Part shown: piece after piece, positions 35,115 through 35,470 of the stretch
Layout: each line of letters opens with the position of its first letter
Numbering within the stretch: position 1 is the stretch's first letter
Assembly: GCF_017876675.1 (NCBI RefSeq)
Contig: NZ_JAGIOI010000001.1
Coordinates: 1,736,001 to 1,800,000 of the forward strand
Source: Arthrobacter stackebrandtii
Lineage (GTDB): Bacteria > Actinomycetota > Actinomycetes > Actinomycetales > Micrococcaceae
Direction of reading: 5' to 3'
Length of the DNA stretch: 64,000 nucleotides
Notes under the pieces: model-generated
Database searches by the model: none
What the model saw: only the letters and a program-made list of their open reading frames with translations
What the model was told of the DNA's origin: nothing
Program-made: the position numbers and the translations under genes

Positions 35115-35470
35115 TGTCCCCAAAGTTCTCCACACTGTGGATAACTTTTTCCCACAACCCACAGACTTATCCACGGGCGTTGACAAGTCCTTCGAACTAT
35201 CCACAAGCAGTCTTCGAAGCTGTGGTTATCCCAAGTTGTTCACAAAGTTATCCACAGACGTGGATAACTTTGCGCGATGAAAAGCCCGGCATGCCGTAAG
35301 ACCCCGTCAGAAAGTAATCCACAGCTGTGGAATTACATGTGTGTAACTTATGCCCAATGTGCATAACCCTGTGGAGAACTAGTAGTTCGACGAGTCTTCA
35401 GGTACTCGAACTACAGCTCTGTAAGTTATGCCCATGTGTGGACATCACTGTGGATAACTGTGGATACGTG
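35115..35470. promoter_or_regulatory. Dense cluster of DnaA-box-like sites
   Basis: Within 335 bases there are three exact boxes: tgtggataa at 35136 and 35449, and ttatccaca at 35248. There are at least six near matches with one change (35167, 35197, 35259, 35315, 35358, 35459). Some are paired as inverted repeats, for example ttatccacagacgtggataa at 35248-35267. The cluster fills the gap between the phosphatase and flavin reductase genes, 15 kb from dnaA. It could titrate DnaA, act as an auxiliary or alternative origin, or regulate the flanking genes. Confidence 0.75.

Follow-up and report, generated by a model that had tools for sequence, protein, structure and literature searches.

The described systems closest to the locus studied here are groups of DnaA boxes that lie outside oriC. 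In Escherichia coli, DARS1 and DARS2 are situated far from oriC (PMC11317965); the DARS core has box I opposite in direction to boxes II and III, at equal spacing, and the essential boxes of datA all face the same way (PMC5742627). Near-oriC clusters of DnaA boxes in Bacillus subtilis and Streptomyces coelicolor repress untimely initiation, according to two reviews (PMC4585315, PMC5742627), the S. coelicolor cluster being that of Smulczyk-Krawczyszyn 2006 as cited in PMC4585315. In Mycobacterium tuberculosis, the DnaA-bound regions given by Hicks et al. (2020, PMC7738170) are oriC, rpmH-dnaA, the region upstream of dnaB, Rv3843c-RVnc0040, and Rv0010c-Rv0011c, and ChIP-seq in M. smegmatis recovered regions homologous to those bound in M. 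tuberculosis. In the Rv0010c-Rv0011c region, two box-like sequences form a palindrome; the region is bound by DnaA in vitro, and a region homologous to it was among those found by the M. smegmatis ChIP-seq (PMC7738170). Mutants of this site form longer cells, as do dnaA mutants, which the authors liken to hypomorphic alleles and for which the initiation rate is reported as unchanged; the site is called cryptic and its consequence is left between titration and nucleotide exchange (PMC7738170).

The window analysed here is a stretch of 64,000 nucleotides (G000:C1:1736001-1800000; positions within it carry the prefix W) from a 4.43 Mb, single-contig genome whose closest named records are Micrococcaceae, e.g., Arthrobacter psychrochitiniphilus and Specibacter cremeus. 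We take Rv0011c to be crgA. The Rv0010c-Rv0011c site is then like the DnaA-box cluster of the window in lying on the 3′ side of crgA, near the origin, and in comprising a box-like group with a palindromic pair. The window cluster differs in having 14 boxes and four three-box units and in lying three ORFs away from crgA, between genes for a histidine phosphatase and a flavin reductase (Table 1). Given the position of crgA, the site is parted from it by a LuxR-type regulator, an unknown ORF, and the histidine phosphatase. A gene for 6-phosphogluconate dehydrogenase shares the minus strand with dnaA and dnaN; recF was located through Pfam, and gyrA and gyrB were assigned by gene order only. From the usual gene order, we take rpmH to be the neighbor in the gap upstream of dnaA, and this rpmH-dnaA gap presumably contains the dnaA promoter.

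Table 1 Features of the window, in window positions; spacings of three-box units are given as outer (tandem)/inner (convergent).
Feature	Start	End	Strand	Remarks
ORF containing crgA	29235	29693	+	PF06781 (cell division protein CrgA) at W29442-29687; putative ancestral left neighbor of the site, now 5.4 kb off
LuxR-type regulator	30347	33076	-	Between crgA and the cluster in the source genome
Histidine phosphatase	34390	35010	+	PF00300; left neighbor of the cluster
DnaA-box cluster	35114	35514		14 boxes (at most one mismatch), 3 exact; built largely of four three-box units
Three-box unit	35114	35144	+	Spacing 12/10; first box with 2 mismatches
Three-box unit	35236	35267	+	Spacing 12/11; central box W35248
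Single conserved box TAATCCACA	35315	35323	+	Mean conservation 0.99 in 13 genus relatives
Three-box unit, left-facing	35348	35378	-	Spacing 12/10; third box with 2 mismatches
Three-box unit, left-facing	35426	35457	-	Spacing 12/11; third box with 2 mismatches
Flavin reductase	35484	36035	+	PF01613; separates rhomboid from cluster in own genus and two other named relatives
Rhomboid protease gene	36066	37145	-	Putative ancestral right neighbor; cluster beyond its 3′ end throughout Micrococcaceae
dnaN	48918	50042	-	
dnaA-dnaN gap box cluster (presumed oriC)	50266	50463		5 boxes; three-box unit absent
dnaA	50500	52035	-	
Box cluster upstream of dnaA (rpmH-dnaA gap)	52075	52258		7 boxes; three three-box units, two overlapping

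Boxes were scored on both strands, allowing up to one mismatch to TTATCCACA or TTGTCCACA. Thirteen lie in W35126-35467 and one more at W35506 within the flavin reductase ORF; the exact boxes are at W35136, W35248, and W35449. The preliminary description, which had counted three exact and at least six near-exact boxes, some in inverted pairs, therefore if anything understated the cluster (14 boxes, three exact, over W35126-35514). The inverted pairs are present at W35126/35136 and W35248/35259, and the cluster, 15 kb from dnaA, is indeed denser than those at dnaA, with 14 boxes against 7 (W52075-52246) and 5 (W50266-50463). In 200 local 2-mer-block shuffles, the mean maximum per 400-bp stretch was 1.94 and the highest 4, compared with the 14 observed. 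The motif TTWTNCACA occurs nine times in the window against 2.42 expected, and four of the nine are inside the cluster. Genome-wide, exact boxes number 32 for TTATCCACA and 47 for TTGTCCACA; beyond its own 400 kb, the source genome was scanned for exact boxes only. Across 13 aligned genus relatives, the window base is retained in 89.0% of box cells versus 69.1% of spacer cells (Mann-Whitney p 5e-11), and the central box W35248 is identical in all 13. An Rfam search of W34000-36500 gave no match. Terminator-like matches turned out to be the convergent box pairs, whose stems have five pairs, and were not counted as terminators.

The boxes recur in a three-box unit, defined as a tandem pair at spacing 12 or 13 followed by a convergent pair at spacing 10 or 11, with each box having at most two mismatches and at least two of the boxes at most one. 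Within the 400 kb of the source genome, such units are found only in the cluster, where there are four, two per direction, and upstream of dnaA, where there are three; five shuffles contained none. The rpmH-dnaA gap thus resembles the cluster in carrying three copies of the same unit and is DnaA-bound in M. tuberculosis as described in PMC7738170, but it lies in the presumed dnaA promoter rather than beside crgA.

The position of the cluster is conserved well beyond the genus. We collected 80 named Micrococcaceae loci anchored on the DUF3566 gene, four of which stop before the rhomboid gene. At least four boxes lie beyond the rhomboid 3′ end in 74 of the 76 loci in which it is present; the exceptions are L081, with two boxes, and L086, with three, and the short locus L108 has nine. 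In Micrococcaceae loci spanning both, the cluster is ~13-18 kb from the dnaA-dnaN gap. In the window itself, the flavin reductase gene separates the cluster from the rhomboid gene. A four-box cluster beyond the rhomboid 3′ end was also found in 12 of 13 further genera within the family and in 4 of 15 order-level genomes (one of these order-level genomes, G053, has an inverted rhomboid gene), and in that survey it lies ~11 to 23 kb from dnaA. Judged by eye among the genes listed, the gene beyond the cluster varies, being crgA in G036 and others in G029, G032, and G033, and crgA, a sortase, and a trpG/pabA-type gene stand further out in several. The rhomboid gene is retained in L081, a Renibacterium MAG, yet that part of the locus has at most two boxes per 600 bp, making it one of few losses in the family. 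Locus L059 is titled Sporosarcina beigongshangi, a Firmicutes name; its DUF3566 protein is 96% identical to that of the window and has the same neighbors, and it is probably a mislabelled Micrococcaceae genome.

Outside the family, the boxes are found at crgA. CrgA (PF06781) is present in 117 of 118 genomes of the class Actinomycetia, of which 70 were examined: the 30 with loci plus 40 picked to cover genera and families not yet represented (the 47 left out include G134, G147, and G161, with crgA 95-123 kb from dnaA). In these 70 genomes, 183 boxes fall within the 630 bp at the crgA 3′ end, where the flanks would predict 8.2; the controls gave 15 boxes for the reversed pattern and 9 for the crgA 5′ side. 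At least one box lies 3′ of crgA in 66 of the 70 and at least two in 54, with none in four; this stretch was strictly the densest in 59 genomes, tied in 8, and beaten in 3. A genome with at least two boxes there occurs in 24 of 31 families. The representative of the window’s own family, G031, scores zero at crgA since its cluster sits at the rhomboid side, off crgA. Beyond the class, 54 genomes of the phylum were sampled, and 24 gave a crgA match while 30 did not; the 24 carry 39 boxes on the 3′ side against 2.7 expected, at least one in 18 and at least two in 11 (in one of the outside-class loci, L345, the 3′ side was scored over 189 bases only).

In 29 of the 30 genomes for which it was determined, the dnaA-crgA distance is 10-132 kb; in the remaining one it is 336 kb. 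Three, three, and four boxes persist at crgA in the genomes where it is separated from dnaA by 124, 132, and 336 kb, respectively; two genomes with crgA 85 and 128 kb away have zero boxes there. On balance, the box site follows crgA. The window cluster shares the synteny of this crgA-linked site, with crgA on its left across the intervening ORFs, and it contains the unit in four copies.

At the 70 class loci, box-pair spacings peak at tandem 13 and 12 and at convergent 10, 23, and 24, and in the Micrococcaceae clusters they peak at convergent 11 and tandem 13. On the dnaA-dnaN side, the tandem spacings are 12 and 9, and no convergent pairs occur within 40 bp when one mismatch per box is allowed. 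The full unit is present in 33 of the 70 class loci and in 19 of 31 families; 37 of the 70 are without it under the rule used. Since the unit spacing was picked from the same loci, alternative spacings serve as the control: 12/13 followed by 12/13 occurs in 10 of the 70, and all others in 0-3. Among the 71 full-length Micrococcaceae loci, 134 units lie beyond 13.5 kb in 62 loci, zero lie at 2-13.5 kb, and six lie near dnaN in six loci. A unit is found beyond the rhomboid gene (in the window’s own genus, beyond the flavin reductase gene) in 24 of 35 dnaA-to-rhomboid stretches. We considered a rule that the unit is generally absent from oriC; it holds in the window and fails in some relatives, as 5 of 15 order-level genomes and one family genome (G059) have a unit in the dnaA-dnaN gap. 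Its presence upstream of dnaA and within certain dnaA-dnaN gaps raises the possibility that the unit is a platform for DnaA binding in general.

At the sequence level, the position, the conservation, and the three-box unit of the site are established. We regard it as fairly likely that the cluster represents, in Micrococcaceae, an ancient, predicted DnaA-binding control site found just 3′ of crgA across many Actinomycetota. By analogy with the mycobacterial site, DnaA very likely binds the units of the cluster. As an enlarged copy of the crgA-side predicted DnaA site, the cluster is probably a switch tuning DnaA and not a second replication origin.

The preliminary description had proposed the true origin or an auxiliary one as a possible identity for the cluster, to be checked by GC skew. 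The cumulative GC skew of the source genome’s 400 kb does reach its minimum at W35321, with a single-break fit at 35-36 kb, and the cluster has more boxes per stretch than the gaps flanking dnaA. In four genus relatives, however, the skew minima (within 100 kb) are displaced 13.3-13.5 kb from the cluster, three to the dnaN side and one to the opposite side. The skew of the dnaN-DUF3566 interval is -0.036 in the source genome and averages 0.008 in the genus and 0.003 in the family. In 14 order-level relatives this interval is flat or has negative skew, averaging -0.024 (range -0.096 to 0.024); the 10 of them that lack a four-box cluster beyond the rhomboid gene, and serve as controls, have a mean of -0.022. 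Since the flat interval recurs without the cluster, the skew plateau appears to belong to these genes and not to the cluster. The oriC of this phylum is expected beside dnaA, between dnaA and dnaN, and the cluster is 15 kb away; the most AT-rich 40 bp reaches 0.70 in the dnaA-dnaN gap versus 0.65 in the cluster, a small difference. The boxes, moreover, accompany crgA even at a distance of 336 kb from dnaA. As the boxes stay with crgA and the skew is flat in relatives that lack the cluster, a replication origin is unlikely, and we give a real or auxiliary origin at this site very little credence. Fourfold-site skew, which appeared lagging-like for gyrA, gyrB, and dnaN, was dropped as confounded by expression-linked codon bias.

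A second suggestion was that the cluster regulates the flavin reductase gene. In the window’s own genus, the cluster ends 17 bases ahead of the flavin reductase ATG, with a further box inside the ORF, and at least 10 boxes per 400 bp lie upstream of the gene in 22 of 30 flavin reductase loci, all 22 from that genus; the remaining eight, from other genera, have 0 or 1. Although each of the 15 flavin reductase matches among the 80 Micrococcaceae loci adjoins the cluster, 59 of the 74 clusters are in loci without a match, so that control of this gene cannot be the original role. Three other genera carry the gene with at most one box around it, while their cluster is at the rhomboid gene. DnaA might instead regulate another adjacent gene, and in G029, G032, and G033, among the genomes listed, a plus-strand gene does follow the cluster too. 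The identity of the following gene, named by eye among those listed, varies between genera, leaving no constant target, and around crgA the boxes are concentrated 3′ of the gene, with nine on the 5′ side. No sigma-70-like promoter was detected in W34900-35700 by a scan that misses some actinobacterial promoter types, and in M. tuberculosis the expression of both neighbors was unchanged in dnaA mutants (PMC7738170). Transcriptional control of a neighbor, be it the flavin reductase or another adjacent gene, accordingly seems improbable to us.

The switch that we favor would work through the geometry of the unit. In contrast to datA, whose essential boxes run one way, the tandem-plus-convergent arrangement would bring bound DnaA into a partly head-to-head orientation, and such a complex would alter the amount of active DnaA, thereby coupling initiation to growth and division. 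Micrococcaceae would have multiplied the unit, here into four facing units, giving a greater DnaA-holding capacity. For the direction of the effect, we lean tentatively and slightly toward a positively acting, DARS-like site over a sink. The longer-cell phenotype in M. tuberculosis points to a positive effect of this kind. The DARS1 and DARS2 cores of E. coli (MG1655) consist of a tandem pair at 12 followed by a convergent pair at 14, and the window cluster has the same core topology, two boxes in one direction and one opposite, with an outer spacing of 12. The convergent inner spacing of 10/11 in place of 14 speaks against a DARS-like site, the 12-and-14 combination being absent from the cluster. 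The site, furthermore, usually lies near dnaA, the window cluster has several units, and the occurrence of the unit elsewhere than at the crgA site lowers the odds of a DARS-like role.

A sink for titration or inactivation, datA-like or Bacillus/Streptomyces-like, is a possibility we hold with more doubt: placed near the origin and duplicated early, it would soak up or switch off DnaA and block re-initiation. Both the number of boxes (14) and the closeness to dnaA favor a sink, and crgA is 10-132 kb from dnaA in 29 of 30 genomes. Since DARS1 and DARS2 are far from oriC and the site is usually near dnaA, a sink would also suit its location better. The cluster is like datA and the B. subtilis and S. 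coelicolor clusters in being an off-oriC box group, and theirs restrain initiation, the latter two repressing its untimely occurrence (PMC4585315, PMC5742627). The recurrent unit, on the other hand, is convergent at a fixed spacing that a plain sink would not need, and the cluster therefore lacks the single direction shared by the essential boxes of datA (PMC5742627). The mutants of the M. tuberculosis site also look like reduced rather than raised DnaA activity (PMC7738170). The preliminary description’s idea of a DnaA-titration locus, or more broadly a control locus, is plausible given the class-wide recurrence and the DnaA-bound mycobacterial counterpart (PMC7738170).

DnaA bound at the cluster could alternatively act at long range as part of the orisome, looping to DnaA at oriC and helping or delaying its firing. 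The usual location of the site within 132 kb of dnaA (29 of 30 genomes) would permit this, and contacts of actinobacterial DnaA domain I have been proposed to link distant box clusters within oriC (PMC13270200); a dnaA distance ranging from 10 to 336 kb argues against it, and we rate such looping as rather unlikely. A bolder version of the DnaA switch, which we put forward as speculative, is that Actinomycetota have their own class of off-origin DnaA-remodelling sites, linked to crgA instead of the origin and retained by crgA-bearing lineages throughout the phylum, in which the convergent unit would recharge or reshape DnaA in a DARS-like manner with a different geometry, and which would have been amplified to multi-unit arrays in, for example, Micrococcaceae.

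Off-origin DnaA sites are known as a kind, and one mycobacterial instance of the crgA-side site has been published (PMC7738170). As far as we have searched, the phylum-wide recurrence beside crgA, the three-box unit with its own spacing, and the four-unit expansion in this lineage are new; in the open-licence literature searched, we found neither the three-box unit nor the breadth of its conservation described. The regulation of actinobacterial DnaA outside oriC is poorly known. If a crgA-side site with a defined unit is phylum-wide, its function becomes testable in harmless soil bacteria carrying four units, and because crgA is a cell-division gene, the question of replication-division coupling is raised.

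Of the five DnaA regions of M. tuberculosis, four have a counterpart in the source genome that carries a box cluster. One of these clusters is a group of eight DnaA boxes at G000:C1:1725102-1725340 (L046:10102-10340), between rplI and dnaB and directly upstream of dnaB, which is the counterpart of the M. tuberculosis site upstream of dnaB. The dnaB product is 879 aa long and has an internal, weak homing-endonuclease match below Pfam’s cut-off, perhaps reflecting an intein. The window also contains two rRNA operons on the minus strand (W721-6315 and W9573-15167), which are 8.85 kb apart and 35-51 kb from dnaA.
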